Below are positions 1 through 35,025 of a stretch of DNA of 64,000 bases, one piece after another; the first letter of the stretch is position 1; each line of letters opens with the position of its first letter. Source of the DNA: Mycolicibacterium goodii (GTDB lineage: Bacteria; Actinomycetota; Actinomycetes; Mycobacteriales; Mycobacteriaceae); the NCBI RefSeq assembly GCF_022370755.2, contig NZ_CP092364.2:3100001-3164000 (forward strand), read 5' to 3'. The position numbers and the translations under genes are program-made. The notes beneath the pieces were generated by a model that searched no databases, was not told the origin of the DNA, and was given only the letters and a program-made list of their open reading frames with translations.

Positions 1-206
1 CCACCATCGTCGCGCTCGACACCCTGCCACTGACCACCAACGGAAAACTCGACACCCGCGCCCTGCCCGCCCCCCAATACCAAAGTGCCAACCACCACCG
101 CGCCCCCACCAACCCCATCGAAGACATCCTCACCGGCATCTACACCCACATCCTCGGCATCGACCACATCAGCATCGACGACTCCTTCTTCGACCTCGGC
201 GGAGAC
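1..206 (+). repeat. Third copy (partial) of the A-domain/carrier repeat
   Basis: Bases 1-206 are identical to 12171-12376 and 19788-19993. Identity stops exactly after the Asp codon of the carrier motif GGD-Ser. Downstream of it this copy switches to an epimerase-type carrier ([11 protein letters not shown]), while the other two continue as [11 protein letters not shown]. How far the copy extends to the left cannot be seen. Confidence 0.95.
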
Positions 207-3200
207 AGCATCCTGTCGATGCAAGTGGTCGCGCATGCCCGCGCGGCGGGACTGACCTGTCGGCCCCGGGACATCTTCGTCGAGCAGACCGTTGCCAGGC
301 TGGCACGTGTCGTCGAAGTGACCGACAGTTCGGACACAGTTTCCGATGACGGTGTCGGGCCGGTGTCGCCGACGCCGATCATGCACTGGCTGCACAACAT
401 CGACGGACCCACCGATCAGTTCAACCAAACAATCATGGTCCAAGCACCACCCGGGGTCACCGAAACCGACGTGATCACCATCCTGCAAGCCCTACTCGAC
501 CACCACGCCATGCTGCGCCTGCACGCCGAAAACAACGGCGAGAACACCGGCGAGAACTGGACACTCACCACCCTCCAACCCGGCACCATCAACGCCCACG
601 AATGCCTACACACCGTCGACACACTCACCCACGACACACTCACCCACGCCCGCTCACTGCTGAACCCCACCCACGGATCAGTCGTGCGTGCACTATGGGC
701 CACCCGCACCAGCCAACTCGCACTGATCATCCACCACCTGGCCATCGACGCAGTCTCCTGGCGAATCCTGCTCGAAGACCTCAACATCGCCTGGACCCAA
801 CACCAACGAAACCAATCGATAACTCTTCCGGCTCCGGCAACCTCATTCGCGCGGTGGGCGTCACTACTCGCCGAGCACGCTCATTCCACGGCAGTGGTTG
901 AGCAGGCTGATATTTGGCGGCGCACATGCGCCCGGGCGGCGGCTTCGACCGCTGTGCCCGCACCGGCGCCCGAGTCCGATACCTACGCCAGCGCGGGACA
1001 CCTGACGGTGTCGCTGGATCCCGAGGTCACGCGCCTGTTGCTCGGCGAGGTCCCCGCCGTGTTTCACACCGGCATCCACGACATCTTGCTGATCGCCTAC
1101 GCATTGGCGTGGGCCGAGTTCCTCGGCGCGTCAGGTGCGCCGGTCGCTATCGCCGTCGAGGGCCACGGCCGGCACGAAGAGTTGACGGATGAGCTTTCCG
1201 ACAACCTGGACCTCTCCCGCACCGTGGGCTGGTTCACCACGAAATATCCTGTGACCCTTCGCGTCGGCGGGCTGCACTGGGAAAATGTCGCAGCGGGTGA
1301 CGCCACGCTCGGCATGGTGATCAAGGACGCCAAAGAGCAGTTGCGTGCTCTGCCCGATCCTCTGACGTACGGGCTGCTGCGCTACCTCAACAGCGACGTC
1401 GACCTGTCCGGGCCCGACCCGACCATCGGATTCAATTATCTTGGGCGGCTGGGTGCGGGTGCCGGTGAACTCTCTCGAGAACTGTGGCACATTTGCGAGG
1501 ACAGCCTGGCTGTCGCAAGGGCCGCAGCCGCGGTGCCCGTGCCGCTTTCCCACAGCGCCGAGCTCAACGCCGCCACCATCGACACCCCTGAGGGCCCCTG
1601 CCTGCAAGCCACGTGGAGTTGGGCGCCGTCAGCGCTGAACCAGGCGCAGATCAGCCGGCTCAGCAGGCTGTGGTTCGAGGCCCTCGCCGGCATCTGCACC
1701 CACGTCCAAGACGGCGGCGGCGGACTCACCCCTTCCGACATCGCACCTGCCCGCCTCACCCAACCCGAGATCGACGATTTGCAGCAGCAATACCGCATCG
1801 CCGACATCTTGCCGCTCACTCCCATGCAGCAGGGGCTGCTGTTTCACACCACCACTGTGGGAGGCCACCAAGACGACGTGTATGCGATGCAGCTCGACAT
1901 CTCCGTCAGTGGTCCCCTGGATTCCGGTCGGCTGTACAAGGCAGTGCAGTTCGTCACCGCACGCCATCCGAACGTGGTGGCCCGGTTCTGTCAGCGAGTC
2001 GCCGAGCCTGTGCAGATCATCCCGGCCGACCCCGTGGCGGCATGGAGCTACGACGTCGTGGACAACGAGGACCAGATCCAGCGGGTGTGCGCGGCCGAAC
2101 GCGCCGCGGTTTGCCACCTCGGCGACGGTCCGGCCTTCCGAGTGGCGCTGATACGCACCGACGACGAGCGGCACCGGATTGTGTTGACCTTTCACCACAT
2201 CGTGCTGGACGGATGGTCACTACCGATCCTGTTGCAGGAGATCTTCGCCGGCTATTACGGGCGTGGGTTGCCCGCCGCCACGCCGTATCGCCGGTTCGTC
2301 ACCTGGCTCACCGAACGAGACCTCGACGCGGCCCGCACGGCCTGGAGCGAGGTGCTCACGGGCATCGACTCCCCGACCCTCATCGGCCCGCCCGGGCGGC
2401 TGAAACCAGGGCCGAAAAATACTGCCACGTTCCAGATTTCCGATCAGACCACCCGGGCCTTGAACGCTCTTGCCCGAGCGTGTCACACCACTGTCAACAC
2501 CGTGCTGCAGGCCGCGTGGGCACAAGTACTGTCGGCGCTCACCGGTCACCACGATGTCGTGTTCGGAACCGCGGTGTCCGGACGCCCCACCGATCTACCC
2601 GACGCGGAATCGATGGTGGGCTTGATGATCAACACCATCCCGGTGCGCGCGACCATCACACCGACCACCACCAACGCCGGCCTGATCGACCAGCTGCACG
2701 AGGCGCACAATCGCACTCTCGAACATCAGCACTTGGCGCTCAACGAGATTCACCGCGCCACCGGACACGACCAACTCTTCGACACCCTGTTCGTCTACGA
2801 GAACTACCCGATCGACACCGATGCACTGTCGGGAACCAACGGGTTGACCATCACCGGGTTCACCGGCCGTGAGACCAACCACTATCCACTGACCGTGCAG
2901 GCCACACCCGGTAGCCAGATCGGCTTCCGTATCGAGTACGACACCGACGTCTTCGATCCGCCGAGCGTCGACTCCGTGATCGACCGGTTGCAGCGCGTCC
3001 TGGTCACCATGACCGACTGTCCCACCCAACCGATATCGACCCTCGACATGCTGTCCGTCGATGAACACGCACGCCTGGACGATTTCGGCAACCGGGCGGT
3101 ACTGATCGCGCCTGATCCCGTGCGGGTGTCGATCCCGATGCTGTTCGCTGACCGCGTGGCGTGCACCCCGCAGGCACCGGCCATCAGTTCCGCGGGCCGT

Positions 3201-6200
3201 TGTGTCACCTACCGGGACCTCGATCAGGCGTCGAACCGGTTGGCCCACCTACTGAGTGGGTATGGTGCGGGTCCCGGCCGATGTGTCGCGCTGATGATGG
3301 AACGCTCGGCCGAAGCAGTCACGGCAATGCTGTCGATATTGAAGACCGGGGCGGCGTACCTGGCGATCGATCCGGCGTTGCCCGATGAGCGAATCGGATA
3401 CATGGTTTCCGACGCCACGCCGATGGCCGTCATCACCACAGCGGCTCTGCGGTCACGGATCAGCAGATCAGACCTTACGGTCATCGAGGTGGGCGATCCT
3501 TCTGCGACCGGCCAACCCAGCACCCCACTACCCGCACCCGCCGCCGAAGACATCGCCTACCTGATCTACACCTCGGGTACCACTGGTACGCCCAAAGGCG
3601 TTGCCGTCACGCACCGGAACGTGATTCATCTGGTCGAATCGTCCTCGGTCCACCTGCCTGAAGTCCAGGTGTGGACCCAGTGCCACTCCTACGCGTTCGA
3701 CTTCGCGGTCTGGGAGATCTGGGCTGCTCTGCTCGCGGGTGGGCGCCTCGTGATCATCCCCGAGGAGGTGACCGCCTCGCCACGAGACTTCCACGCCTTG
3801 CTCGTCAGGGAACAGGTCAACGTGCTGACACAAACCCCGTCCGCGGCCGCCGCACTGTCGCCCGACGGGCTGGATTCGGTCGCATTGATTCTCGGCGGGG
3901 AGGCGTGCCCGGCCGAACTTGTGGAGCGGTGGGCGCCCGGACGCGTGGTGATCAACGCCTACGGCCCCACCGAAACCACCGTCTACGCCACGCTCACCGC
4001 GCCGCTGACCACGGGTCCGACGCCTGTACCGATCGGTGCGCCCGCGTCAACCGTCACGTTGTTCGTGCTCGACGATTGGCTACGACCGGTGGCACCGGGG
4101 GTGGTGGGTGAGTTGTACGTCGCGGGCCGTGGTGTCGGCGTCGGTTATGTGCGCCGCCCCGGATTGACCGCATCTCGTTTCGTGGCCTGCCCGTTCGGGG
4201 GAACCGGGACCCGGATGTACCGCACCGGAGATCTGGTGCGCTGGGACTCCGACGGCCAACTGCACTACCACGGCCGCGTCGACGATCAGGTCAAGATCCG
4301 CGGCTACCGCATCGAACTCGGCGAAATCCAGACTGCCCTGGCCGCACTCGACGGCGTACAGCAAGCGGCGGTCATCGCCCGCGAAGACACCCCCGGCGAC
4401 AAACGCCTCATCGGCTACATCACCGGAACCGCCGACCCGATCGCCACGCGCACCACCCTCGCCGAACGCCTCCCCGCCTACATGGTCCCCGCCGCCATCG
4501 TCGTGCTCGACACCCTGCCACTGACCATCAACGGAAAACTCGACACCCGCGCCCTCCCCGCACCCGAATACCAGGGTGCCGACCGTTATCGCGCCCCCAC
4601 CAACGCCATCGAAGAAATCCTCACCGGCATCTACGCGCAAGTTCTCGGACTCGACCGCGTCGGCGTCGACGAATCCTTCTTCGACCTCGGCGGCGACTCG
4701 CTCACCGCCATGCGCCTCATCGCGGCCGTCAACACCAACCTCAACACCAACCTCTCCGTACACACCCTTTTCGACACACCGACGATCGCCCGGCTGGCAC
4801 CCCGGCTCAGCTCTGGCCCGGGGCGACGGCATCCACTTGTTCCCTACCCGCGGCCCGCGGTGATTCCGCTGTCGTTCACACAGAACCGGTTGTGGTTCGT
4901 CGACCAGTTGCACGGCCCGTCATCGGTTTACAACATCACCGCGGCATTGAACCTACGCGGATCGTTGGACACCGAAGCGTTGCAGATGGCGCTGGCCGAT
5001 GTGGTGGCCCGTCACGAAAGCCTGCGCACCCTGATCACCGCCCCGGACGGCATACCCCGACAGCAGGTCGTTCCCGCCGAGCGGGCCGAGTTCGGGTGGG
5101 AGGTCATCGACGCCCACGGGTGGTCGCGAACCAGGCTCGACCAGGCCATCGAACAAGCGTCACGTCACACGTTCGACCTCGATTCCGACATCCCGTTGCG
5201 GGCGCGACTTTTCCGCATCGCCGACGGCGAACACGTGTTGGTCGGCGTGGTGCATCACATTGCCTTTGACGGGTGGTCCTTGACTCCGATGGTGCGCGAC
5301 CTCGGCATGGCATACCAGGCGCGCAAACAGGGGTGTGCTCCCGATTGGCCACCGCTGCCGGTGCAATACATCGATTACGCGTTGTGGCAACGCGAACAGT
5401 TCGGCGACCTCACCGACACCGACAGCCCCATCGCCGCACAACTGGAATACTGGCGAGAAATGCTGGCCGGGCTACCCGACCGACTGCAGTTGCCCACAGA
5501 CCGGCCATATCCCCCTGTCGCCGATCAGCGCGGCTCCCGCGTGTCCGTGGACTGGCCGACACAACTTCACCGACAGATCCACGAGACAGCCCGTCAGCAC
5601 AACGCCACCAGCTTCATGGTGATCCAGACCGCCCTGGCGATCCTGCTGTCACGACTGAGCCAAAGCTCCGATATCGCAGTCGGATTCCCGGTCGCCGGAC
5701 GCACCGACCCCGCCCTCGACGAACTCATTGGCTTCTTCGTCAACACACTCGTACTACGCACCGACCTCACCGGCGACCCCACCATCACCGAACTCCTCAC
5801 CCAGGTACGCCAACGCAGCCTCGCCGCCGTGGAACACCAGGACATCCCGTTCGAAGTCCTCGTCGAACAACTCAACCCCAACCGCTCACTGACCCACCAC
5901 CCCCTGATCCAGGTCGCACTGGCCTGGCAAAACCTCCCCGGAACCACCAACGACGCCGCGGGCCTGACCCTCGGCGACGATATGCGGGTCACCCAGATAC
6001 CGCTGAACACCCACACCGCCCGAATGGACCTGACCTTCTCGCTCTCCGAACATCTCACCCCGGCCGGTGAACCTCAGGGAATCCAGGGATCCGTCGAATA
6101 CCGCACCGACGTGTACGAGACACAAACCGTCCGCACACTCATCGACCGCTTCGAGCGGGTACTGGTCGCCGTGACCACCGCTCCGGCACAGCGGATTTCG

Positions 6201-9200
6201 TCCATCGACCTGCTCAGTGAGACGGAGCGCACGTGCCTCGACCGCCTCGGCAACCGCGCAACACTCACCCGGCCCAGCACACCGGTGTCGATCCCGGAGT
6301 TGTTCGCAGCGTGGGTGGCCCGATCCCCCGAAGCAGTAGCGGTGAGCGACGGCACACGACCCACCGCCTACCGCGAGCTCGACGAAACCTCGAACCGGTT
6401 GGCCCACCTCCTGACTGAGTATGGCGCCGGCCCCGGCCAATGCGTCGCCCTACTACTGCCCCGCAGCACCGACGCCATCACCGCCATATTGGCCATCCTC
6501 AAAACCGGCGCGGCCTACCTGCCCATCGACCCCGCCACACCCGACACCCGCATCGAATTCACCCTCACCGACGCCACACCCGTGGCCACCGTCACCAACC
6601 AGACACTGCACACACGATCAGCCAAGTACGGCGTACCGACCGTCGACATCGACCACATCGACCTGACCACTCAACCCAGCACCCCGCTACCCGCCCCGGC
6701 CCCAGCCGACATCGCATATCTCATCTACACGTCGGGCACCACGGGTGTACCGAAAGGCGTTGCGATCAGCCATCACAACGTCACGCAGCTGCTGAGTTCA
6801 CTGGATGCCGGCCTGCCTCGCACGGGTGTCTGGCCGCTGTGTCACTCTTTGGCATTCGATGTTTCGGTGTGGGAGATCTTCGGCGCCCTCTTGCGGGGCG
6901 GGCGTGTCGTGGTCGTGGCAGAAGATGTTGTGACTTCGCCGACCGACTTTCACGAGATGCTGCTCACCGAGCATGTCGACGTGCTCACCCAGACTCCTTC
7001 TGCAGCACGGGCCTTGTCACCCGAGGGCTTGGAGTCAGCGGTATTGGTGGTCGTCGGGGAGGCGTGCGGCGCCGACGTGGTCGATCGATGGGCCTCCGGA
7101 CGCGTGATGATCAACGCCTACGGCCCCACCGAGACGACCATGTGCGTGGCAATCAGCGCCCCACTGTCCGCCGGGGTGGGCGCGGTACCCATCGGCGTTC
7201 CCGTGCCCGGGGCGGCTTTGTTTGTCCTGGACGACTGCCTGCGACCCGTACCGCCAGGGGCGACCGGTGAATTGTATGTCGCCGGAGATGGTGTCGGCAT
7301 CGGGTATGTGCGCCGGGCCGCGTTGACGGCATCTCGTTTCGTGGCATGCCCGTTCGGTATGCCGGGGGCGCGGATGTATCGCACGGGTGATCTCGTCTGT
7401 TGGGGTCCTGACGGCCAACTGCAGTACTTCGGGCGCGCCGACGAGCAGGTCAAGATCCGCGGCTACCGCATCGAACTCGGCGAAATCCAGACTGCCCTGG
7501 CCGCACTCGACGGCGTACAGCAAGCGGCGGTCATCGCCCGCGAAGACACCCCCGGCGACAAACGCCTCATCGGCTACATCACCGGAACCGCCGACCCGAT
7601 CGCCACGCGCACCACCCTCGCCGAACGCCTCCCCGCCTACATGGTCCCCGCCGCCATCGTCGTGCTCGACACCCTGCCACTGACCATCAACGGAAAACTC
7701 GACACCCGCGCCCTCCCCGCACCCGAATACCAGGGTGCCGACCGTTATCGCGCCCCCACCAACGCCATCGAGGGAATCCTCACCGGCATCTACGCGCAAG
7801 TTCTCGGACTCGACCGCGTCGGCGTCGACGAATCATTCTTCGACCTCGGCGGCGACAGCATCTCCGGGATGCAGGTGGTGACCCGCGCCCGGGCGGCCGG
7901 TGTGATGTGCCGTCCGCGCGATATTTTCCTCGAACAGACCGTCGCCGGGGTTGCGCGCGTGGCTCGAGTGGTCGCCGTGAGTGACCTCCAGGCCGGCCCG
8001 GTCGATGACGGTGTCGGGCCGGTGTCGCCGACGCCGATCATGCACTGGCTGCACAACATCGACGGACCCACCGATCAGTTCAACCAAACAATCATGGTCC
8101 AAGCACAACCCGGGGTCACCGAAACCGACGTGATCACCATCCTGCAAGCCCTACTCGACCACCACGCCATGCTGCGCCTGCACGCCGAAAACAACGGCGA
8201 GAACACCGGCGAGAACTGGACACTCACCACCCTCCAACCCGGCACCATCAACGCCCACGAATGCCTACACACCGTCGACACACTCACCCACGACACACTC
8301 ACCCACGCCCGCTCACTGCTGAACCCCACCCACGGATCAGTCGTGCGTGCACTATGGGCCACCCGCACCGGCCAACTCGCACTGATCATCCACCACCTGG
8401 CCATCGACGCAGTCTCCTGGCGAATCCTGCTCGAAGACCTCAACATCGCCTGGACCCAACATCGACAAAACCAACCGATCGTGTTGCCCGCGGGCGGGAC
8501 ATCCTTCCAGCAGTGGGCGTCTCGGCTTGCCGAGCACGCTCACGAGCCTGAGGTGGTGGAACAGGCTGCGGCCTGGCGACGCGTGACGGCGGCCGCGGCA
8601 GCCTTGCCCGGCCCCCGACCGGAGGCCGATACGTACGCCGGCGCCGGCCGTCTGACGGCGTCGCTGGATGCCGAGACGACGCGCCGGTTGCTGGGTGAGG
8701 TTCCCGCGGCGTTTCACACCGGCATACAGGACATCCTGCTGATCGCATTCGGACTGGCCTGCAGCGAATTCCTCGCCACCGACGGGCCTATCGCAATCGA
8801 CGTCGAGGGCCACGGCCGGCACGAAGACTTGACGAATGACTTGGCCGATGATCTCGACCTGTCCCGCACCGTGGGCTGGTTCACCACCAAATACCCTGTC
8901 GCGCTGAGCGTCGGCAACCTGCGCTGGGCGCAGGTTGTGGCGGGCCATGCGTCGCTGGGCCCGATCGTCAAGCGCGCCAAGGAACAACTGCGTGCACTGC
9001 CCGACCCGCTGACGTACGGGCTGCTGCGCTACCTCAACAGCGACGTCGACCTGTCCGGACCCGACCCGGGCATCGGATTCAATTACTTCGGGCGACTTGG
9101 CTCGGCCGCCGACGAACTCACTCATGAACTATGGCAGGTCAGCCAGGACGGTTTCGCGGTTGCCACCTCGGCGGCAGCGGTGCCGATGCCGCTGGCGCAC

Positions 9201-10688
9201 ACAGTGGAACTCAACGCCGGCACCGTTGACTCTGACTCCGGCCCGCATCTGCACGCGACCTGGACCTGGGCGCCGTCGGCACTCGATCACGCCCAGATCA
9301 GCAGGCTCAGCCAATTGTGGTTCGACGCCCTGACCGGCATCTGCACCCACGTGCAAAACGGCGGCAGCGGACTCACCCCCTCTGACATCCTCCCGGCACG
9401 CCTCACACAGACCCAGATCGACCAACTGCAGCAGCACTACCGCATCGCCGACATCCTGCCGCTCACGCCTCTGCAACAGGGACTGCTCTTCCACGCCAAG
9501 GTCCAGAACAGCGACCGCGACCTGTACGCAATGCAGCTCGACATCGCCGTCAGTGGTCCCCTCGACCCCGAGCGCCTGCACGACGCAGTGCACACCGTCG
9601 TCGCGCGCCACCCCAACCTGGCCGCCCGCTTCTCTCAACAATTCGACCAACCGGTCCAGATCATCCCCGCCGAACCCCAAATACCGTGGCAACATCTCGA
9701 ATTCGACACCGACGCCGAAGAGAAGATCCAGCAAGTGTGTGCGGCCGAACGCACCGCAGTCGGCGACCTCGGACACGGGCCGGTCTTCCGCGTCGCCGTG
9801 ATCCGCACCGCACCCGATCTACACCGGGTCGTGCTGACCAACCACCACATCCTGCTCGACGGCTGGTCACTACCGATCCTGCTGAGCGAGATCTTCGCTT
9901 GCTACCACGGGCAGCGACTACCCGCCGCCACACCATATCGCCGCTTCGTCACCTGGCTCACCGAACGAGATCTCGACGCGGCCCGCACGGCCTGGTGCGA
10001 GGTGCTCGACGGCTTCGACAAGCCCACCCTGGTGGGACAGCCGGGCCGGTCACGGCTGGGACCGCGCGGCCTCGCATCGTCTCGGGTGCCTGAGGACATC
10101 ACCCAAGCTGTCAACGAGCTGGCCCGCGCCTGTCGCACGACCGTCAACACCGTGCTGCAGGCCGCCTGGGGGCAGGTCCTGATGTCGGTGACCGGACGGC
10201 GTGACGTCGTGTTCGGCGCCGCGGTGTCCGGACGTCCCACCGATCTACCCGGCGCAGAGACCATGGTGGGCCTGATGATCAACACCGTCCCGGTGCGCGT
10301 GACCATCAGACCGACCACCACTGTCGAAGACCTGATCGACCAGCTGCACCACGAACACAACCGCACTCTCGACCATCAGCATTTGGCGCTCAACGAGATT
10401 CACCGCGCCACCGGCCACGACCAACTCTTCGACACCCTGTTCGTCTACGAGAACTACCCGATCGACACGGCCGCGCTGCTGAGCACCAACGGATTGGTTG
10501 TCACGGGGTTCACCGGCACCGAATCCACCCATTATCCGTTGACGATGCAAGCCCGTCCCGACCACGAGTTGATCCTTCGCGTCGAATACGACACCGATGT
10601 CTTCGACGCGGCCGGCATCGAGACGCTGATCGAGCGGTTCCATCGTGCCCTGGCGGCCATGACCACTGATACAGGGAGTCGACCGTGA
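1..10688 (+). CDS. Multimodular non-ribosomal peptide synthetase, upstream subunit (5' partial)
   Basis: The frame is open at base 3, so the gene begins upstream of the window. Domains in order by nucleotide: C-terminal A subdomain (3-110), carrier protein (Ser at 207-209), epimerase (about 360-1740, [10 protein letters not shown] and TVGWFT motifs), DCL-type condensation (1790-3080, HHIVLDG), adenylation (3120-4590, [11 protein letters not shown]), carrier (Ser 4698-4700), LCL condensation (4855-6190, HHIAFDG), adenylation (6270-7740), carrier (Ser 7857-7859), epimerase (8010-9400), DCL condensation (9430-10670). All core motifs look intact. The protein stops after a C domain that has no A domain of its own; that A domain opens the next gene, which overlaps by 4 nt (GTGA). 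Specificity-pocket residues read by eye: DFWTIGAVYK for the A at 3120 (closest to Thr codes known to me) and DVWTVVAMCK for the A at 6270 (partly like Phe codes). Substrate calls are weak; the NRPS assignment is certain. Confidence 0.97.
344..802 (+). repeat. Epimerase-domain repeat, copy 1
   Basis: About 459 bp at the start of the epimerase domain is almost identical to 8003-8461. The differences I could find are an APPG/AQPG change and a TRTSQ/TRTGQ change in the protein. Beyond base 802 the two epimerase domains diverge to ordinary paralogue similarity. Confidence 0.9.
4287..4697 (+). repeat. A10/carrier-domain repeat, copy 1
   Basis: About 411 bp covering the end of the adenylation domain and the first half of the carrier protein matches 7446-7856 with only a few mismatches (GAA GAA versus GAG GGA near 4612, and TCC versus TCA at 4676). 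The identity ends immediately before the phosphopantetheine Ser codon. Confidence 0.9.
7446..7856 (+). repeat. A10/carrier-domain repeat, copy 2
   Basis: Partner of 4287-4697. Here the following carrier segment is the epimerase-associated type ([11 protein letters not shown]). The shared block therefore joins different downstream halves at the GGD|S boundary. Confidence 0.9.
8003..8461 (+). repeat. Epimerase-domain repeat, copy 2
   Basis: Partner of 344-802, at a constant offset of 7659 bp. It lies in the second epimerase domain of the same gene. Confidence 0.9.
10659..10688 (+). promoter_or_regulatory. Translational junction between the two NRPS genes (RBS plus GTGA overlap)
   Basis: AGGGAG at 10673-10678 lies 6 nt before the GTG at 10685, and the upstream stop TGA occupies 10686-10688. 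Aligned with the homologous in-frame C-A linker at 18311-18350, this linker is 26 nt longer. It carries two similar starts, ATGACCACTGAT at 10659 and GTGACCACCAAT at 10685. Removing 26 nt would restore one continuous reading frame (linker [13 protein letters not shown] against [13 protein letters not shown]). Translation of the second gene is therefore probably coupled to the first. Confidence 0.8.
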
Positions 10689-13600: not shown

Positions 13601-16600
13601 TCCTGGCAGAACCTCCCCGGGCACGGCGGCAACCACCAGGCAACTCGATTGGCGTTGGGCGATCTGCAGGTGACGCAGATGCCGATCGACACCCACACAT
13701 CGCGCGTGGATCTGTCGTTCTCCCTGGCTGAACGGTTCACCGATTCCGGTGGACCCGCGGGGATCGGCGGTGCGGTGGAGTATCGCACCGACGTGTTCGA
13801 CTCGGCCACCATCCACAGTCTCATCGAGCGGCTCCAACGCGTACTGGTGGCGATGACCTCCGACCCCGCGCAGCGCCTGTCGTCACTGGATGTGCTCGAT
13901 GGCGGTGAGCATGCCCGGCTGGACGAACTCGGCAACCGCGCCGCATTGTTCACCGTCGAACCGATGCCGGAGACCGTTCCGGAGTCGATCGCCGGCCACG
14001 CGGTGCGCACGCCGCGCGATATTGCGATCCGTGACGGCGGCCGCTCGTTGACCTACCGCGGGCTCGACGAGGCGGCGAACCGGTTGGCACACCTGCTTGC
14101 CGCTGACGGAGTGCGGGCGGGTTCGTGTGTGGCGCTGCTGTTGGAACGGTCGGCACACGCGGTCGTCGCGATGTTGGGAGTGCTCAAGTCCGGAGCTGCC
14201 TATCTGGCAATCGATCCAGCGCTACCCGACGTCCGGATCGAGTTCATGATCAGCGACGCCGCGCCAATCGTCGCGATCACCACTGCGGGCCTGCGGTCAC
14301 GCCTGCACGGCTTAGATCTGCCGGTCATCGACATCGACGATCCCGCCGTGGACAGACAGCCCAGTGCACCACTGCCGGCACCTGCCCTCGACGACATCGC
14401 GTATCTCATCTACACCTCGGGCACCACCGGTGTGCCCAAAGGCGTTGCCATCACTCACCGCAACCTGACCCACCTGGCGCAGTCACCGGCCCCCGGTCTC
14501 GACGGCCCACAAATATGGACCCAATGTCATTCCTACGCCTTCGATTTCTCGGTGTGGGAGATCTGGGCAGCACTGCTCGGCGGTGGGCGCCTGGTGATCG
14601 TGCCCGAGGAGGTCGTGACATCACCAGAAGATTTACGGGCCTTGCTGGTCAGCGAACACGTCACCGTGCTCACCCAGACCCCTTCTGCCGTGGCCGCTCT
14701 CGAGCCGCAGGGGCTCGATTCGGTGGCATTACTGCTCGGCGGCGAGGCGTGTCCTGCCGAGGTGGTCGATCAGTGGGCCCCCGGGCGGGTGATGATCAAC
14801 GCGTACGGACCCACCGAAGCCACGGTGTACGCATCGATGAGCGCTCCGCTCACCGCGGGTTCGGGTGCTGCGCCGATCGGGGCGCCGGTGCCGACCACGG
14901 CGTTGTTCGTCCTCGATGAATGGTTGCGTCCGGTTCCGACCGGCGTCGTCGGCGAGTTGTATGTCGCGGGTCGCGGCGTGGGAGTCGGCTATATCGGTCG
15001 CACCGGGCTGACTGCCTCCCGATTCCTGGCGTGCCCGTTCGGAACACCGGGGGCGCGCATGTATCGCACCGGAGACCTCGTCCGCTGGGGCGCCAACGGG
15101 CAATTGCACTATCTGGGCCGCGCCGACAACCAGGTCAAGATTCGAGGCTACCGCGTCGAACTCGGCGAAATCCAGACCGCGCTGGCCGCACTTGAGGGAG
15201 TCGGTCAGGCGGTGGTGATCGCTCGCGAGGACCGCGCCGGTGACAAACGCCTGGTCGGTTACGTCACGGGGACCGCTGACCCCATCGACGCGCGTGCTCA
15301 ACTGGCCCAACAACTCCCGTCATACATGGTTCCGAGCGCGGTGGTGGTTCTCGATGCGTTGCCCCTGACGGTCAGCAACAAGCTCGACACCCGCGCGCTT
15401 CCCGCGCCGGAGTATCAGGCTGCCGACCATTACGTCGCGCCCGCCGACGCTGTCGAGGCAGTCCTGGCCGGCATCTACGCCCAGGTGCTGGGGCTGGAGC
15501 GGGTCGGGGTCGACGAGTCGTTCTTCGATCTCGGTGGCGACAGTATTTTGTCGATGCAAGTGGTGGCTCAGGCGCGCGCGGCCGGGCTGACGTGCCGCCC
15601 GCGTGACATCTTCGTCGAGCAGACCGTGGCCCGACTGGCCCGAGTGGTCGCGGTGACCGACCGTCAGGCGGGGCCGGTCGATGACGGTGCCGGGCCGGTG
15701 ATTCCCACGCCGATCATGCACTGGCTCAACGCCATAGACGGTCCCATCGAACAGTTCAACCAGACAATGGTGGTCCAGTCACCACGCGGGGTGGCCCACG
15801 CCGACGTGGTGACCGTTCTTCAAGCCCTGCTCGACCACCACGCCATGCTGCGCCTGCACGCCGAAAACAACGGCGGGACCTGGACACTCACCCTCCCCGA
15901 ACCCGGCGCCATCAGCGCCGATACCTGCCTGACCACCGTCGACACACTCTCCGCCGACGCGCTCTCACAAGCCAGATCCCAGCTCAACCCTGCCCGCGGA
16001 GCAGTCGTACGTGCGCTGTGGGCCACCGGCACAGGCCAACTCGCACTGATCATCCACCATCTGGCCGTCGACGCAGTCTCCTGGCGAATCCTGCTGGAAG
16101 ACCTCAACATCGCCTGGGCACAGCACCGTGACGGCCAACCGATCGCCCTACCTGCGGTACGGACCTCATTTGCACGCTGGGCATCGCTGATCGACGAATA
16201 TTCCCGTTTGCCAGCGGTCACCACCCAGGCCGAACAATGGCAAGAAGTGTCGGCGACCCCGCCCTCGTTGCCGGCGGTACAGCCCGCGCTGGATACCTAC
16301 GCCGGTGCCGGGCATCTCACGGCATCACTGGACGCCGATACAACGCAACGACTGCTCGGCGAGGTTCCCGCAGCGTTCCACACCGGCGTCCAGGACATTC
16401 TATTGATCGCCTTTGCGCTGGCCTGCCGTGAATTCCTCGCCACCAGCGGGTCGATAGGGATCGATGTAGAAGCCCACGGCCGCCAGGATGACCTGGCCGA
16501 CAACCTGGACCTGTCCCGCACCGTGGGCTGGTTCACCATGAAATACCCTGTGGCGCTGAGTATCGGTGAGTTGCGTTGGGACCATGTGCTGACCGGGGAC

Positions 16601-19600
16601 GCCTCCCTGGGGCCGATCATCAAGCATGCCAAAGAGCAGTTGCGTGCACTGCCCGACCCCCTGACCTACGGGCCGCTGCGCTACCTCAACACCGACGTCG
16701 ACCTGTCCGGGCCCGACCCGACCATCGGTTTCAACTATCTGGGCCGACTGGGTGCTGCCACCGGCGAGCTCCCCCAGGAACTGTGGCGCGTGAGCCACGA
16801 CGGTGTACCGCTGTCTGCCACCGCTGTGCCCATGCCGCTGGCGCACACATTGGAACTCAACGCCGGCGCTGTCGAATCGGACTCCGGGCCACACCTGCAA
16901 GCGACGTGGACCTGGGCGCCGTCGGCACTCGATCACGCCCAGATCGGCAGGCTCAGCCAATTGTGGTTCGACGCCCTGGCCGGCATCTGCACCCACGTCC
17001 GAAACGGCGGCGGCGGACTCACACCCTCCGACATCGCCCCGGCACGCCTCACACAGACCCAGATCGACCAACTGCAGCAGCAGTACCGCATCGCCGACAT
17101 CCTGCCGCTCACACCCCTGCAAAAGGGACTGCTCTTCCACGCGGGCGCCGTTGCGGAGCTCGGTGATCTCTACGCGATGCAGCTCGACATCACCATCGCC
17201 GGTCCACTCGATACCGAGCGCCTGCACGACGCGGTGCACACCGTGGTCGCACGCCACGCCAACCTGGCCGCCCGCTTCTGCCTACAGTTCGACCAACCGG
17301 TGCAGGTCATCCCCGCCGACCCTGAAATCCCTTGGCAGTATCTTGAGCTCGACGACGCCACCGAAGATCAGATCCAGCAAGTTTGTGCGGCCGAACGCAC
17401 CGCAGTCGGCGACCTCGGACACGGACCGGTCTTCCGAATAGCCGTGATCCGCACTGCGCCAGAACAGTACCGGGTCGTGCTGACCAACCACCACATCGTG
17501 CTCGACGGCTGGTCACTACCGATCCTGCTGGGCGAGATCTTCGGCAGTTACCACGGCCAACGATTGCCGGCCGCGACACCGTATCGCCGCTTCGTCACCT
17601 GGCTCGCCGAACGAGATCTCGACGCGGCCCGCACCGCCTGGTGCGAGGTGCTCGACGGGTTCGACAGGCCTACCCTCGTCGGGCGATCGAGCACGCTTGA
17701 GGCAGGGCACCACGTGATTTCGTCTCGTGTGCCCGAGCAGACCGCCCGTGCACTGGCAGGTCTCGCGCGGTCGTGTCACACCACCGTCAACACCGTGCTA
17801 CAGGCCGCGTGGGCGCAGGTACTGACGGGACTGACCGGCCATCACGATGTTGTGTTCGGCACCGCGGTGTCCGGACGACCCACCGATCTACCCGGCGCAG
17901 AGACCATGGTGGGCCTGATGATCAACACCGTCCCGGTGCGCGCGACCATCAGACCGACCACCACTGTCGAAGACCTGATCCACCAACTCCACAACGCACA
18001 CCACCACACCCTCGACCATCAGCATTTGGCGCTCAACGAGATTCACCGCGCCACCGGACACGACCAACTCTTCGACACCCTGTTCGTCTACGAGAACTAC
18101 CCGATCGACACCCATGCGTCGCTCGACTTCCGCGAACTGGCCATCACCGGGTTCGCGAGCCGCGAATCCACCCACTACCCGTTGACGATGCAAGTCACCC
18201 CAGGAGATGAACTCCGTCTGCGCATCGAGTACGCCACCGACGTGTTCGATCCGGCGAGCATCGACTCATTGATCAACCGGTTGCAGCGTGTGCTGGCAGC
18301 CATGACCGACGACCCCACCCGAGTGGTGACGACCATCGACATGCTGTCCGCCGATGAACACACCCACCTCGATCAACTCGGTCATCGGTCGGTGTTGACT
18401 CAGCCGGTGGCGCCGGTGTCGATCCCGGAGTTGTTCACCGCGTGGGCGGTTCGCTCACCCGAGGCAATTGCCGTGACATGCGATGGCCGCTCGATGACCT
18501 ACCGCGAACTCGATGAGGCATCGAACCGACTGGCCCACCTATTGTCTGGGTACGGTGCCGGGCCCGGCCAATGCGTCGCTCTACTGCTGCCCCGTTGTGT
18601 CGACGCCATCACCGCCATCCTCGCGATCCTCAAAACCGGCGCGGCCTACCTGCCCATCGACCCCGCCACACCCGACACCCGCATCGAATTCATCCACACC
18701 GACGCCACACCCATCGCCACCATCACCACCCCCACACTGCACCCACCGGTGGCAGCGTGCGGCGTACCCCTCATCGACACCAACGACCCTCGCCTTCACA
18801 CCTGCCCCGATACCCCGCTCCCACCGCCGGCGCCCGACGACATCGCCCACATCATCTACACCTCCGGCACCACCGGAACCCCCAAAGGCGTCGCCGTCAC
18901 CCACCACAACATCACCCGCCTGTTCGACCACCTCACCATCGGCATCGACCTCAACCCCGACCAGGTCTGGACCCAATGCCACTCCTACGCCTTCGACTAC
19001 TCCGTCTGGGAAATCTGGGGCCCACTACTGCACGGCGCACGACTCGTCATCGTCCCCGAACACATCACCACCTCACCGGCCGACCTCCACCAACTACTGA
19101 TCCACGAACACGTCACCATATGGAGCCAAACCCCCACCGCCCTGGCCGCCCAAACCCCCGACGACCTCCCACCCCTCACACTCATGGCCGCCGGCGAAAC
19201 CTGCCCCACCGACGTCGTCAACCACTGGGCACCCGGACGACTCATGATCAACGGCTACGGCCCCACCGAAACCACCATCTACGCCACCATCAGCCACCCA
19301 CTCACACCCGGAGCGGACACCGTCCCCATCGGGGTGCCCGTGCCCGGCACCGCCCTGTTCGTCCTCGACGAACTCCTCCAACCCCTCGCCCCCGGCGTGA
19401 CCGGCGAACTCTACGTCGCCGGCCACGGCGTCAGCATCGGCTACCTCCACCGGGCCGGACTCACCGCCTCCCGATTCCTCGCCTGCCCCTACGGCCCACC
19501 CGGCACCCGCATGTACCGCACCGGCGACCTCGTCCACTGGGGCACCGACGGCCAACTGCACTACCACGGCCGCACCGACCACCAAATCAAAATCCGCGGC

Positions 19601-22600
19601 TACCGCATCGAACTCGACGAAATCCGCCACGCTCTCACCACACTCGACGGTGTCACCCACGCCGCCGTCACCACCCGCGAAGACACCCCCGGCGACAAAC
19701 GCCTCATCGGCTACATCACCGGAACCGCCGACCCCACCCACGCACGCACCACCCTCGCCGAACAACTCCCCACCTACATGGTCCCCGCCACCATCGTCGC
19801 GCTCGACACCCTGCCACTGACCACCAACGGAAAACTCGACACCCGCGCCCTGCCCGCCCCCCAATACCAAAGTGCCAACCACCACCGCGCCCCCACCAAC
19901 CCCATCGAAGACATCCTCACCGGCATCTACACCCACATCCTCGGCATCGACCACATCAGCATCGACGACTCCTTCTTCGACCTCGGCGGAGACTCACTAT
20001 CCGCCATGCGCCTCATCGCCGCCATCAACACCCGCTTCAGCACCGACCTGTCGGTACGGACACTGTTCGACGCACCGACCGTCGCACAACTGGCACCCCG
20101 GATAGCCAAGGCCGGGAGGCGGCGACAGCCGTTCGCGGTCGGCGAAGGGCCCGCAGTGGTCCCGCTCTCGTTCGCGCAGAGCCGGATGTGGTTCCTCAAT
20201 CGGTTCGAGGGTGGGGCGCCAACCTACAACCTGCCGATCGCTTTTCGCGTGAGCGGCGCGCTGGACGTCGAGGCGCTCGATGCGGCCCTCGATGATGTCA
20301 TCGCGCGGCACGAGTCGCTACGCACCATTTTCCCCGACATCGACGGCGTGCCCTTCCAAGAGGTGTTGCCGGCCCGGACCGGCATGTGGCGACGCGGCGG
20401 CGCGGCGACAGTATCGCTGCCTGAACAGGACGTGGCCGGTGAACTGCTGGCGCTGGCTGGATATCGGTTCGATCTGTCGGTGGAGATCCCGATCCGGGCT
20501 CAGATCTATTCGATCGGACCCGAACTGCATGTCGTGGGAATCGTGGTGCACCACATTGCCTTTGACGGGTGGTCGCTGGCCCCGATGTTCCGTGACCTGA
20601 GTGCGGCCTATCAAGCGAGACGCCGCGGCCACGCCCCGCACTGGGAGCCGTTGGGGGTGCAATACACCGACTACACAGTGTGGCAACAGAAGGTGTTGGG
20701 AGCGGAGTCCGATCCGGACAGTGTGATCTCCCAGCAACTGAGGTACTGGCGCGAGGAGTTGGCGGACCTGGCGGACGTGGTGTCGCTGCCGGCGGATCGG
20801 GCCCGCCCGCCGGTGGCCGGCTACCGCGGTGGCAGCATCGATATGCGTATCGATGCTCAGACATGGGCCGGGGTCAAAGCGCTTGCCGCAACACAGAATG
20901 TGACACCATCGATGGTGCTACAGGCAGCCGTTTCGGTACTGCTGCACCGGGTCGGGATGGGTGACGACGTGGTGATGGGCACGCCGATCGCCGGGCGGTC
21001 GGACGAGGCACTGGCAGATCTGATCGGGTTCTTCGTCAACACGTGGGTGTTACGCGTGCACGTCGATTCGGCGAGCCGATTCAGCGATGTGCTCCAACGG
21101 GTGCGCCAGAAGGCGCTGAATGCCTACGACAACCAGGATGTTCCGTTCGAGCGGCTGGTCGAGCAGCTCAACCCCGTGCGCTCCACGTCTCATCACCCAC
21201 TGTTCCAGGTGTTCATGGCATTCCAGAACAACGTGCGTCCCGAGGTTTTGGCGTTCGACGACCTCAGCGCCGAGCCGCTGTCGACATTGACCGGCACCGC
21301 CAAGTTCGACCTGGAGTTCGAGTTCAGTGAGGCAGCGACCGACGATCCTGCCGGTACGACGGCGGCCGGCGTGGTGACCTATGCGACGGACCTCTTCGAC
21401 CGCACCACCATCGAGCGGCTGGTCACGTGGTTCGGGCGTGTGCTTGACGCGGTGGTGACAGATGAGTCGGTCGTGGTGGGTGACATCCCGTTGCTCGATC
21501 CCGGTGAACGTGTTCTGCTGCAGTCGGTTTGGGCAGGGACCGGCACGGAAGCACGGGTGGGCCTGGCGCTCGACCTGTTGACGACGGCGGTGGCGGCCAA
21601 CCCCGACACGGTCGCGGTGATCGATGGTGCGCGTCAGGTGTCGTACCGCGAGCTCGACGAGTGGTCCACGCGGTTGGCGCGGGTACTGATCGAGGCGGGG
21701 GTCGGTCCCGAACGCGCGGTCGGCGTGGCGATCGGCCGGTGCCTGGAGTTGGTGGTGGCCTGGTGGGCCGTGATCAAGGCCGGCGGCGCGTATGTGCCGG
21801 TGGACTGCGCGTATCCGGCGGAGCGGGTCACCACGATGCTGCAGACGGTCGACGCCGTCTGTGTGATGACCTGCGGCACTGACAGCGTCGAGGGGGCCGG
21901 AGCGCTGCCGATACTGCGCATCGATGGTCTGGATCTGTCCGGACGATCGGCAGATCCGATCACCGACGCCGACCGGCCGGCACCGCTGATGGTCGACAAC
22001 ACCGCCTACGTGATGTTCACGTCTGGCTCCACCGGCGCCCCCAAAGCGGTCGCCGTCACCCACACCGGGTTGATGGGGGCGAGCACGCTGGCCGAGGTGT
22101 TCGGGCTGGGTCCGGGTTCACGGTTACTGATGGTTGCCGCACCGACCTTCGACGTGTCGATCGGCGAGTTGTTGTTGGCGGTCGCGGCGGGAGCGACACA
22201 GGTGGTCGCGCCGCCGGGCGCCTACGCGGGGGAAGCATTGACAGCGCTGATCGAAGATCAGCGGGTCAGCGCCGCGGTGTTCACGCCGACGGTGCTCGCG
22301 TCGCTGGGTGCTGTTCCTTTGGACGGGGTGCAGACACTGGCCACCATCGGGGAGGCTCTCCCCGGCGAGTTGGTTGCCAATCGGGCGCCGGGCCGGCACA
22401 TGTTCAACACCTACGGCCCCACCGAGACCACGATCTGGGTCACCTGCAGTGCACCGCTGTCGGCCGGCGAGCCGGTGCACGTGGGTGCGCCGATCCCGGG
22501 AGTGACGGCCCTGGTGCTCGACGCCAGGCTGAACCCGACCCCTGTCGGCGTGGTCGGTGAGCTCTATGTGGGCGGGTCGGCGCTGGCGCGCGGGTATGTG

Positions 22601-25600
22601 GGGCGTGCTGACCTGACCGCGGAACGATTCCTGCCCAACCCGTATGGGCCCGCCGGGTCACGCATGTACCGCACCGGTGACCTGGTGCGGTGGACGCCCG
22701 CAGGGACACTGGAGTACCTGGGCCGCGCCGACAGTCAGATCAAGCTGCGCGGACAGCGCATCGAACTGGGCGAAATCGAGAACGCCCTGCTCGCCTGCAC
22801 GGAGGTCACTCAGGCGGCCGCAACTGTGCACCGCGGCAGGACGGGCGCACATCTGGTGGCGTACGTGACACTCGAGCACACCTCCTCCACCGACCGTGAC
22901 GCCGAGATCCTCGGAGACTGGCGGGATGTCTGGGACGGGCTGTACGGGGCCGGGGGCACGGCGCCGGAGTTCGGCATGGATTTCCGGGGCTGGAACAGCA
23001 GCTACACCGACGATCCGATTCCGGTCGAGGAGATGCTGGAATGGCGTGCGGCGACAGTGGATCGGATCACGGCCCTGCAACCGCGGCGGGTGCTGGAGAT
23101 CGGAGCAGGCTCTGGTCTGCTGATGTCACAGGTCGCGCCGCGGTGCGAACGCTACGTCGCAACGGACATCTCGGCGAAGGCCGTCGACAATGTCGCCCAC
23201 ACGCTTGAGCAGATGCAGATCCCGTGGCGTGATCGAGTCCAGTTACTGACACGGCCGGCACACGTGGTCGAGGGGCTTCCGTCGGGGTACTTCGACACCG
23301 TCATCCTCAACTCGGTCATCCAGTACTTTCCAAACCGCGGATACTTGACGGACGTCATCAGCGCAGCCTTCGATCTGCTGGCACCCGGCGGCTCACTGTT
23401 CATCGGAGACGTCCGGAACCACGCCCTGCACGGGGCGTTTCACACCGCGGTCGCGCTCGCCCGCGCCACCACCGCGGACGCCGATGAGGTCTACCGGCGA
23501 GTCCAGCAGGCCACACTCAACGAGCGCGAACTTCTGGTGGCTCCAGAGTTTTTCACCGCGTGGGCCGCCGATCATCCGACGGTCGCGGGCATCGACATCC
23601 GAGTCAAAGCAGGAACGGCCGACAACGAACTGAATCGGTACCGCTACGACGTCGCGGTTCACAAGAACCCGTCACCGGTGCGATCGCTGGCGACCGTGCC
23701 CACCTGGCCGTGGTCTCGATGTGCAGGCCTCGGCGGTCTGCGTGCCCAGTTGACGACGCAACGTCCCGAGGCCGTGCGCATCACCGGGATCCCCCGCGCC
23801 GCAGTCATTGCCGACGTGCACATCGAACAGGCACTTGCCGCGGGGCTGCCGTTGGCCGATGCACTCGACCGAGCCCGCGCCGCAACGACCGCCGACGTCA
23901 CACCCGACCAATTGCACCGCGTTGGCGAGTCGATCGGATACCACGCAGCCGTGACCTGGGGCGCCATTCCGGGCACCATGGATGCCGTTTTCGTCAGTAC
24001 CTCAGACGGTCCCGCACACCGCGGTTCGCGGCTGACCGACCTCTACCTGCCCGCGGACGGGAGCCGGCGAAACACCGCCCACACCAACGATCCACGCAGC
24101 AACAGCAAGATCGGCGCGGTGCGCGGGCAGTTGAGTTCACGGCTACCCGACTACATGGTGCCGTCCCACATTGTCGTGCTCGACGAATTTCCATTGACGT
24201 CCTCAGGCAAGATCGACCGGAAGGCGCTGCCCGCACCGGTATTCGCCGCCACCGCCTACCGGGCGCCGCAGACCCAGACCGAGAAGATCGTCGCGGACAT
24301 CTACGCAAAGGTCTTGGGTGTCGACCGCGTGGGAGTCGACGAATCGTTCTTCGACCTGGGCGGGGATTCCCTTTCGGCGATGCCCGTGATCGACGCGATC
24401 AACAAGACCCTCGACACCGATCTCGCGGTGCGCACGATCTTCGACGCACCGTCCGTCCGAGACCTGAGCCGGCGGTTGGACAGCCGCGCGAGCACGGCGA
24501 CCACCACCTTTGCGCGCGTGCACGGCCGGCCCGCCGCTGATGCGGATGGACATCCAGGTGTCGTCCATGCCGCTGACCTCACGCTGGACAAGTTCATCGA
24601 CGCCACAGCGCTGTCCGCCGCCCCGGTGCCGACGCGGGTCGGCACCGATCCGCGAACGGTCCTGCTGACCGGCGCCACCGGGTTCCTCGGGCGCTACCTG
24701 GCTCTCGAATGGCTGCAGCGAATGGCACTGACCGGGGGCACGCTGATCTGCCTGGTGCGCGCCAGGTCCGACGAGGACGCATGGCGCCGCCTCGAAAAGA
24801 CCTTCGACAACGGCGACCCGGAACTGTTGCGGCACTTCCGGGAACTGGCGGCCGACCATCTCGAGGTCATCGCCGGGGACAAGTCCGAGGCAAACCTCGG
24901 GTTGGACCCCCAGACCTGGCGGCGACTGGCCGACGACGTCGATCAGATCGTCGACTCCGCGGCCGTGGTCAACGGCGTCATGCCCTACAAGGAACTTTTC
25001 CGGCCCAACGTCGTGGGCACGGCCGAACTGATCCGCCTGGCGCTCGCCACAAGGATCAAGCCCTACATCTACGTCTCGACGGGCAGTGTGGGCGATCAGA
25101 TCGAACCGTCAAAGTTCACCGAGGACGCCGACATCCGGGTCATCAGCCCCACTCGCAGGATCGAGGACAACTTCGGCGATGGTTACGCCAACAGCAAGTG
25201 GGCCGGCGAAGTGCTGCTGCGCGAGGCGAACGACCTGTGCGGCCTGCCGGTCGCGGTGTTCCGTTGCGACGTGATCCTCGCTGACACCACCTATGCGGGC
25301 CAGCTCAATGTGGCGGACATGTTCACGCGGACCATGCTCAGCCTGATGGCCACCGGCATCGCTCCCCGATCCATCTACCGGCTGGATCCCGACGGTAACC
25401 GACAACCCGCGCACTTCGACGGGCTGCCAGTCGAATTCATCGCCGAGGCGATCACCACACTGGGCGCCCAACTGGGCCGCGATCCCGACGGAGGCTTCCT
25501 CACCTATCACGTGATGAACCCGCACGACGACAACATCGGGCTCGACGAGTTCGTCGACTGGCTGATCGAGGCCGGCTACCCGATCAAACGCATCGACGAC

Positions 25601-25882
25601 TTCGGCGAGTGGCTGCAACGTTTCGAGATCGCCTTGCGTGCTCTGCCGGATCGACAGCGCAGGCACTCGGTCCTCGATGTCATGCAGTTCCTGTTGCACA
25701 CGGCCAAGCAGCTGCAGCCACCCGAGCCGACTCGCAGGCCCTTCGGGCCGACCGACCGATTCCGGGCTGCGGTGCGCCGAGCCAGGATCGGCGCAGACAA
25801 GGACCACCCGGATATTCCGCACATCACGGCGCCCGTCATCGTCAAATACGTCACGGACCTACAACTGCTCGGGCTGCTCTGA
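10685..25882 (+). CDS. Multimodular NRPS, terminal subunit with N-methyltransferase and reductase release domain
   Basis: A 5065-residue protein. Domains by residue: A (26-519), carrier (Ser565), LCL C (618-1062), A (1093-1579), carrier (Ser1620), E (1669-2133), DCL C (2136-2549), A (2564-3059), carrier (Ser3104), LCL C (3156-3599), A (3619-4062) interrupted by a SAM N-methyltransferase (4066-4469, [11 protein letters not shown]), A C-terminal part (4473-4519), carrier (Ser4562), reductase (4657-5065, TGATGFLG and YANSK). The N-terminal A has no C domain; it must pair with the C domain ending the upstream gene. The R domain replaces a thioesterase, so the peptide should leave as an aldehyde or alcohol. 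Pocket residues read by eye: DYWSMAGIYK (first and third A, which are near-identical copies), DFWTLGAVYK (second), DVGVAITIWK (last). Oddities: the last A domain has PKAV instead of PKGV, and the second has SNK at the A10 lysine. GTG start with an RBS at 10673. Confidence 0.97.
10761..12415 (+). repeat. 1.65-kb adenylation/carrier repeat, copy 1
   Basis: Nearly identical to 18378-20032 (offset 7617) over 1655 bp. The two differences I found are 10795 A versus G and 10851 A versus T (Asn/Ile). It spans the whole adenylation domain and most of the carrier protein. Flanking C domains are not copies, so this is a domain-sized exchange rather than a whole-module duplication. Confidence 0.95.
18378..20032 (+). 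repeat. 1.65-kb adenylation/carrier repeat, copy 2
   Basis: Partner of 10761-12415. The right edge falls inside the carrier helix (INTTLDT versus INTRFST). The two modules should select the same amino acid because all pocket residues are identical. Confidence 0.95.
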
Positions 25883-29396: not shown

Positions 29397-29497
29397 GGGC
29401 GGAGCCCCTCTCCAGCTGACCCCGGAACAATGTACCGAGCCAGATGGTGGTCTCGCTGGTGGTTCGGTCCGGATTCCTGAAATCGAGACCGCGGACC

Positions 29498-33530: not shown

Positions 33531-35006
<1,476 letters not shown>

Positions 35007-35022
35007 TCGAACTAGTGTTCGA
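35007..35022. promoter_or_regulatory. SOS box (LexA operator) with embedded -10
   Basis: TCGAACTAGTGTTCGA is a perfect palindromic match to the mycobacterial LexA site TCGAAC-N4-GTTCGA. The central TAGTGT (35013-35018) fits a TANNNT -10 element, with a transcription start expected at about 35025-35026, which is the A of the downstream ATG. LexA binding would block this promoter directly, and the message would be leaderless. Confidence 0.9.
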
Positions 35023-35025
35023 AAC

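Follow-up and report, generated by a model that had tools for sequence, protein, structure and literature searches.

The DNA analysed here is a window of 64,000 nucleotides from Mycolicibacterium goodii (positions 3100001-3164000 of its 6.74-Mb chromosome, which is a single contig), the left part of which is occupied by a non-ribosomal peptide synthetase (NRPS) line. Within the window, the line is encoded by two open reading frames (ORFs), at 3-10688, running off the window edge, and at 10685-25882. The first gene, NRPS1, starts 5,908 bp ahead of window base 1 (genome 3094093), and the window opens inside module 2. The upstream genome DNA supplies module 1, which consists of a starter condensation (C), an adenylation (A) and a carrier (T) domain and has no epimerization (E) domain, so that the whole line comprises eight modules. 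A first-pass annotation, made from the letters of the window, had advised extending the search upstream to a loading module, and module 1 was found there in that role. The full domain order is starter C-A1-T1, LCL-A2-T2-E, DCL-A3-T3, LCL-A4-T4-E and DCL in NRPS1, followed after the gene break by A5-T5, LCL-A6-T6-E, DCL-A7-T7 and LCL-A8(MT)-T8-R in NRPS2 (LCL and DCL, types of C domain; MT, N-methyltransferase; R, thioester reductase). Domains were called with Pfam and NCBIfam on module-sized pieces, and also with hidden Markov models (HMMs) built for this analysis. In window coordinates, the features of the line are as follows:

1-10688, plus strand: NRPS1, 3' part, with modules 1-4 and the C domain of module 5 in the full gene (16.6 kb, genome 3094093-3110688, 5531 aa)
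117-320, plus strand: T2 carrier (GGDSI); HMM
369-1793, plus strand: E2 epimerase; HMM, tree, motifs, TIGR01720
1794-3086, plus strand: C3, DCL type; HMM, tree
3087-4574, plus strand: A3, code DFWTIGAVY; HMM
4605-4811, plus strand: T3; HMM
4851-6245, plus strand: C4, LCL type; HMM, tree
6249-7733, plus strand: A4, code DVWTVVAMC, Phe-like; HMM
7764-7970, plus strand: T4 (GGDSI); HMM
8028-9440, plus strand: E4 epimerase; HMM, tree, motifs
9441-10685, plus strand: C5, DCL type, C-terminus of NRPS1; HMM, tree
10685-25882, plus strand: NRPS2, 5065 aa, a 15.2-kb frame that opens with A5 and overlaps NRPS1 by 4 bp
10763-12253, plus strand: A5, code DYWSMAGIY; HMM
12287-12490, plus strand: T5; HMM
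12530-13927, plus strand: C6, LCL type; HMM, tree, solved-structure match
13931-15418, plus strand: A6, code DFWTLGAVY; HMM
15449-15655, plus strand: T6 (GGDSI); HMM
15704-17086, plus strand: E6 epimerase; HMM, tree, motifs
17087-18379, plus strand: C7, DCL type; HMM, tree, solved-structure match
18380-19870, plus strand: A7, code DYWSMAGIY; HMM
19904-20107, plus strand: T7, here directly before C8 (an extra R domain at that spot in six relative assemblies); HMM
20147-21523, plus strand: C8, LCL type; HMM, tree
21572-24244, plus strand: A8, code DVGVAITIW, interrupted by MT (A core 21572-22870, MT 22922-24046, A end 24116-24244)
24281-24484, plus strand: T8; HMM
24617-25879, plus strand: R8, terminal thioester reductase (GATGFLG, YANSK); family models, 4dqv match

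Seven carriers lie in the window, and the first, the third and the fifth are each followed by an E domain, as the first-pass annotation had read them; the Pfam and NCBIfam models and the HMMs built here agree. The last module does carry the N-methyltransferase and the R domain announced for it, the former inside A8 and the latter at the protein end. The catalytic motifs of the line are intact: HHxxxD is kept in all eight C and all three E domains, and GGDS in all eight carriers, which read GGDSI upstream of an E domain and GGDSL elsewhere. Inactivity of the E domains had been named beforehand as a finding that would speak against the predicted D residues; VE[GA]HGR is kept in all three (VEAHGR in E6), and E2 is matched by TIGR01720.

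The C domains fall into two types already by their opening motifs, LPLTPxQxGLLFH in C3, C5 and C7 and [VI]P[LV]SFxQxRxWF in C4, C6 and C8. For a tree of C and E domains (56 rows), the glycopeptidolipid (GPL) line of the same genome served as a yardstick. Its three DCL and three E domains are usable for that purpose because the GPL peptide is D-Phe-D-aThr-D-Ala-L-alaninol, as stated in PMC3537567. In the tree, C3, C5 and C7 are placed among the DCL domains of GPL (100/99). C1 falls beside the GPL starter C domain and the line's E domains beside those of GPL (100/100 in both cases); C2, C4, C6 and C8 form a separate LCL group (95/95). Comparison with solved structures gave the same division. C7 scores 245, 199 and 189 bits to PvdL, TycB and SrfA-C, which we take to stand for the DCL type, and 103 bits to TycC, which we take to stand for the LCL type; C6 scores 192 bits to TycC and 92 bits to SrfA-C. 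The nearest solved C domains to C1 are 7c1k (143 bits) and the C domain of CDA synthetase (111 bits), both presumably starter-type domains. Thus, the exact DCL/LCL register proposed earlier is upheld by opening motifs, tree and structure scores alike, and the phylogeny does not contradict the calls.

Based on homology, the predicted peptide is acyl-L1-D2-L3-D4-L5-D6-L7-(N-methyl)L8 with a reduced end. The description of the product as strictly alternating D/L therefore stands for the predicted residues 1-7 and fails at the end, where module 8 follows an L residue, has no E domain and predicts an L-L pair. The A8-MT region aligns with 5wmm, which we take to be an N-methylating enzyme, over residues 5-887 of 971, and the MT is inserted between the core of A8 and its C-terminal portion, which suggests backbone N-methylation of residue 8. 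Against the solved R domain from M. tuberculosis NRP (4dqv), the terminal R8 scores 648 bits, and it is 67% identical to the R domain of the GPL line of the same genome. Since the product of that line ends in alaninol, R8 likely releases its product as an alcohol. The MT within A8 and the terminal R thus support the N-methylated last residue and the reductive release that had been proposed.

Supply of an acyl chain is suggested by the genes on both sides. A polyketide synthase (PKS) gene (2092 aa, KS-AT-DH-ER-KR-ACP) lies 15 bp before NRPS1 and scores 3628 bits to NF041183 (cut-off 2400), which models the phthioceranic acid synthase Pks2. The KS Cys and both KS His residues (EAHGPGT, NFGH) are present, as are the AT, ER, KR and ACP motifs, and the DH region reads GDHRIRDVAVLP. 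Between this gene and an upstream MmpL gene (906 bits to TIGR00833, cut-off 875) lies an MbtH-like gene (genome 3087421-3087642; 101 bits). Downstream of NRPS2, the window contains:

25897-26820, minus strand: SAM methyltransferase MTa; Pfam; beside NRPS2 also in genomes G066, G235, G337 and G091 and in M. nebraskense
26923-27678, plus strand: SAM methyltransferase MTb; Pfam; also in G235, G337, G091 and M. nebraskense, with no match in the G066 flank
27675-29573, minus strand: fatty-acyl-AMP ligase (FAAL) of the FadD23/FadD28 type; Pfam, NF004509, structures

The FAAL scores 708 bits to FadD23, 597 bits to FadD28 and 932 bits to NF004509 (cut-off 775). Together with the starter C domain and the PKS, it supports the earlier view of the product as an acyl peptide. 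Compared with the Pks2/Mas-type PKS and FadD23/FadD28-type FAAL systems, the PKS and FAAL found here exceed the family cut-offs (NF041183, NF004509). Unlike in Pks2/Mas systems, 15 bp separate the PKS from a following NRPS gene that carries a starter C domain, and the acyl chain would therefore pass to the peptide.

The MT-T-R end of the line was surveyed in 297 genomes of the genus, with two candidates per genome scored. Among the matches listed, 7 of the 297 have it whole or up to a contig end, M. goodii included. The complete eight-module layout with the C5/A5 frame break is found in G066, G235 and G337, on one contig each; in G091 the layout was seen from T3 to R8, and the contig stops within NRPS1. 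A PKS orthologue at 73-77% identity is present in six of the seven genomes asked and adjoins NRPS1 in G066, G235 and G337. The gene neighbourhood is thus partly conserved: MbtH and MmpL are present in the G066 locus, and G066 has the FAAL downstream of NRPS2, being the only relative flank with one. A related NRPS of M. genavense ATCC 51234 (L073) has its domains scattered over many broken frames, which suggests a decaying line. In four Nocardia loci (L042, L044, L046, L047), a related MT-bearing A domain directly follows a starter-like C domain.

Each specificity code was taken from nine columns, located by aligning the A domains to the core motifs, and a tenth letter (Lys) was added by convention. 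The codes are DAESLAGVC for A1, DYWSMAGIY for A2, A5 and A7, DFWTIGAVY for A3, DVWTVVAMC for A4, DFWTLGAVY for A6 and DVGVAITIW for A8. The own-genome GPL line gave DAWTVVGIC (Phe), DYWSVGMVH (Thr), DVWCIAAIY (Ala) and DVWYVAAIY (alaninol). A4 is taken as Phe-like because six of nine letters match the GPL Phe code. Tentatively, the side chain of residue 4 may be read as Phe-like and that of residue 1 possibly as basic, and residues 2, 5 and 7 may be identical to each other. The A1 code resembles what we believe to be a bacitracin Lys code; Lys at position 1 was not retained beyond a weak lead, the A domains of the mycobactin-type locus of the same genome being unlike DAESLAGVC. In G235 and G337, the codes differ from those of the window line by 0-3 of nine letters per position, with A1, A4 and A6 identical, and the peptide therefore looks conserved between these species.

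It is probable, in our judgement, that the cluster makes an exported cell-envelope lipooctapeptide amino alcohol that would itself probably be non-glycosylated. Its branched acyl chain and export are suggested by homology. In the proposed route, the FAAL would activate a fatty acid and the phthioceranic/mycocerosic-type PKS would elongate it, probably with methyl-branched units, after which C1 would load the chain onto residue 1. The eight modules, helped by MbtH, would build L1-D2-L3-D4-L5-D6-L7-(N-Me)L8 with epimerisation at 2, 4 and 6, the terminal R8 would free the peptide, probably as an alcohol as in GPL, and MmpL would export it.

Several observations weigh against this proposal or narrow it. 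In the C/E tree, long branches meet between domain groups, as the program warned; the predicted residues 7-8 do not alternate; most specificity codes are without a close calibrated match; and R8 could stop at the aldehyde. G066 keeps the eight-module layout with other A codes, and the peptide therefore differs within this group of lines. The line of G246 ends in A-MT-T-R, preceded by the non-alternating E-DCL-A-T-E-DCL, and this genome has no close PKS orthologue (best 55%). MmpL and MbtH gave no match in the fetched G235 upstream flank, and no FAAL was found downstream in G235 and G091 (flanks of about 20 kb), G337 (3 kb) or M. nebraskense (less than 6 kb). Finally, no glycosyltransferase was detected among 25 distinct neighbour proteins scanned with Pfam, a scan that covered part of the ORFs; this is unlike GPL, and an unlinked glycosyltransferase is possible.

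That last point leads to the best-surviving alternative, a second glycopeptidolipid with its core glycosylated by enzymes encoded elsewhere. The GPL-type line of the same genome (about 5435.5-5453.5 kb) reads starter C-A-T-E-DCL-A-T-E-DCL and, after the gene break, A-T-E-DCL-A-T-R. The starter C, DCL and E domains of the window line belong to the clades of those of Mps1/Mps2 of GPL, and the two systems also have in common the C/A gene split and the terminal R, as well as an MbtH-like gene clustered with the NRPS genes (83% identical), an MmpL (54% identical) and a PKS in the locus. In the GPL-type locus at 5414-5454 kb (L128, L129), a C domain and the next A domain are likewise split between two frames. 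However, GPL has four modules with E domains in modules 1-3, whereas the present line has eight with E domains in 2, 4 and 6. GPL also lacks an LCL domain and an N-methyltransferase domain, its PKS is distant (30-37% identical segments) and its product is glycosylated. Membership in GPL was rejected on module number and E pattern, and no code here is close to the GPL Thr code, A2, A5 and A7 being nearest with four of nine letters in common. In addition, the scan of 25 neighbour proteins gave no glycosyltransferase.

Second loci in GPL producers do exist, however, and this favours the alternative: the glycosylated lipooctapeptide (GL8P) of M. abscessus, with synthetases MAB_4690c/MAB_4691c, was published in 2025 (PMC11978893). 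The earlier remark that GPL synthetases make only a tetrapeptide holds for GPL itself, but octapeptide lipids of mycobacteria have been published. According to that report, GL8P resembles the predicted product in being an acylated envelope octapeptide; its locus, too, is separate from that of GPL and includes fatty-acid ligase, methyltransferase, MmpL and MbtH-type genes (PMC11978893). The same report gives GL8P predicted D residues at 1, 3, 6 and 8, a predicted thioesterase end, glycosyltransferases, a stearyl chain and two plus six modules (PMC11978893), as against E domains in modules 2, 4 and 6 and an R end here. Membership in GL8P was rejected on E pattern and release type. Taken together, these comparisons make a second glycopeptidolipid unlikely. 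Riviere is also said to have described a lipooctapeptide of M. avium in 1996.

The first-pass annotation had suggested a membrane-active or pore-type peptide instead. Linear gramicidin, made by the synthetase LgrA-D of the Bacillus group, has 15 residues, an N-formyl group, alternating D and L residues and a reductase end; D/L alternation would let the present peptide form a similar beta-helix channel or ionophore. The likeness lies in the alternating layout (here predicted for residues 1-7, not 7-8) and in the reductive end. The best solved-structure matches of A5-T5 are to linear gramicidin synthetase A, and those of A8 are too, so this says little. The gramicidin synthetase begins with a formylation domain, whereas here a starter C domain, FAAL and PKS predict a fatty-acylated N-terminus. 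Eight residues make little more than one beta-helical turn, GPL and GL8P mix D and L residues as well, and the MmpL, MbtH, PKS and FAAL context points to an envelope lipid. A gramicidin-type pore is therefore very improbable, and that suggestion was given little weight. That the cluster is silent or decaying and persists by chance, as the broken frames of the related M. genavense line might suggest, can hardly be credited in view of intact 16.6- and 15.2-kb frames, kept catalytic motifs and a layout retained in three more single-contig genomes.

The line for the proposed envelope lipooctapeptide alcohol departs from both GPL and GL8P in tested features (module number, D pattern, release, locus glycosyltransferases) and would be a new form of the lipopeptide synthesis known from mycobacteria. 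In searches of an open-licence literature library, no compound of a mycobacterium built in this way appeared among the listed papers, in agreement with the first-pass annotation. The stereochemistry, N-methyl group and reduced end predicted for the lipid are checkable by ordinary lipid analysis.

The origin of the alternation is visible in the DNA. C2, C4 and C6 start 7,662 and 7,679 bp apart, and long repeats occur at about that spacing (3.9 kb at 89% for units 2/3, 3.7 kb at 79% for units 1/2). The line is three copies of LCL-A-T-E-DCL-A-T flanked by a starter and a terminal module, and the D/L alternation would result from the copying (triplication) of one two-module unit. Superimposed on this pattern, the A2 and A7 regions share 1,662 bp without a mismatch (genome 3098545-3100206; window 18332-19993), and the A2 and A5 regions 1,641 bp at 99.4% DNA identity (A5 tract 10736-12376), all in otherwise different modules. 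The A2/A7 tract begins at the very end of the C domain and stops in the carrier motif between GGD and S, so the swap appears to have taken in the A domain and left the carrier type, I (before E) or L, unchanged. Judged from these sequences, the tracts represent recent natural A-domain exchange; an assembly error may also have produced near-identical tracts. Recombination is treated as a driver of NRPS diversity in PMC8097286 and PMC9205934. An exchange with both boundaries visible bears on the engineering of such enzymes.

The sister lines differ from the window line by a second reductase. T7 is followed by an R domain (R7) and then by C8-A8-MT-T8-R8 in four of them, those of G235, G337, G091 and M. 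nebraskense (L043). R7 of G235 lies at L035:10133-11371, and the loci of G337 and G091 are L137 and L036; in G235 and G091, the R7-bearing NRPS2 region is one open frame. The same R-C junction is present in sp. E2733 (L045, identical to G048) and sp. 852014-52450 (L055), with R7 clipped by the contig start. R7 thus occurs in six assemblies, perhaps representing fewer than six species because two collections overlap; a query spanning the R7-C8 junction matched 4 genomes out of 396 of the genus. T7 of G235 and that of G091, the two lines compared, are of the T8 type and bear the T-R linker LTLDKFIDA; it seems, therefore, that module 7 received a copy of a T-R cassette.

All four complete R7 domains keep the NADPH loop and YG[NS]SK, and R8 of the same lines reads YPNSK. 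Within species, R7 and R8 are 85-100% identical in DNA over five windows of columns 1-150, with three of the four species at 91-100%; gene conversion would be expected to give such values. Around YxxxK (columns 150-240), the identity is 77-90%, compared with 89-93% for R7 between species in two pairs compared. Judging by these alignments, both reductases of the four lines are motif-intact and differ at the active site, and we read these four as lines with two exits.

We tentatively propose that R7 works and gives the six sister lines (G235, G337, G091, G048/E2733, M. nebraskense and sp. 852014-52450) two reductive exits. The products would then be two alcohols, a lipoheptapeptide and an N-methyl lipooctapeptide, their proportions depending on how R7 and C8 compete. 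The window line would be the one-exit form, and both would make a new class of methyl-branched acyl lipopeptide. The proposal is possible, though we lean towards doubting it. The dN/dS values (0.23-0.39 for R7 and 0.27-0.39 for R8, six pairs each) are disturbed by R7/R8 gene conversion, which counts against it. So does R7 of sp. 852014-52450, where an R8-type middle (YPNSK) is joined to an R7-type C-terminus and breaks the kept R7/R8 difference; our confidence was slightly lowered on that account. The cause would be either gene conversion that extended into the middle of this R7 or faulty assembly of near-identical repeats where the contig ends. R7 may also have a structural role or be a leaky relic. 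No bacterial case of internal or tandem reductase domains was found in open-licence literature listings; the 'two reductase domains' of PMC5473758 are a ketoreductase and a thioester reductase of a fungal hybrid, which is not the same arrangement. If R7 does work, natural one-exit and two-exit versions of one line would offer a direct test of a mid-line release domain.

Elsewhere in the same genome, a third reductase-ended line lies at 2100001-2112000 (L139; A-T-E-DCL-A-T-R, part), with a first code near the GPL Ala code. A large NRPS at 5828-5860 kb (L130, L131), accompanied by an MbtH-like gene at 5856 kb, has ornithine- and threonine-like codes and was read as exochelin-like. This line and the presence of two 16S genes suggest that the organism grows rapidly. 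A contig of a Chloroflexi metagenome bin (L072) carries a mycobacterium-like NRPS module and is possibly misbinned. Within the window, a DUF222 protein is encoded at 34768-36768, between the cluster and genes for alanine dehydrogenase, an M16 peptidase and polynucleotide phosphorylase.

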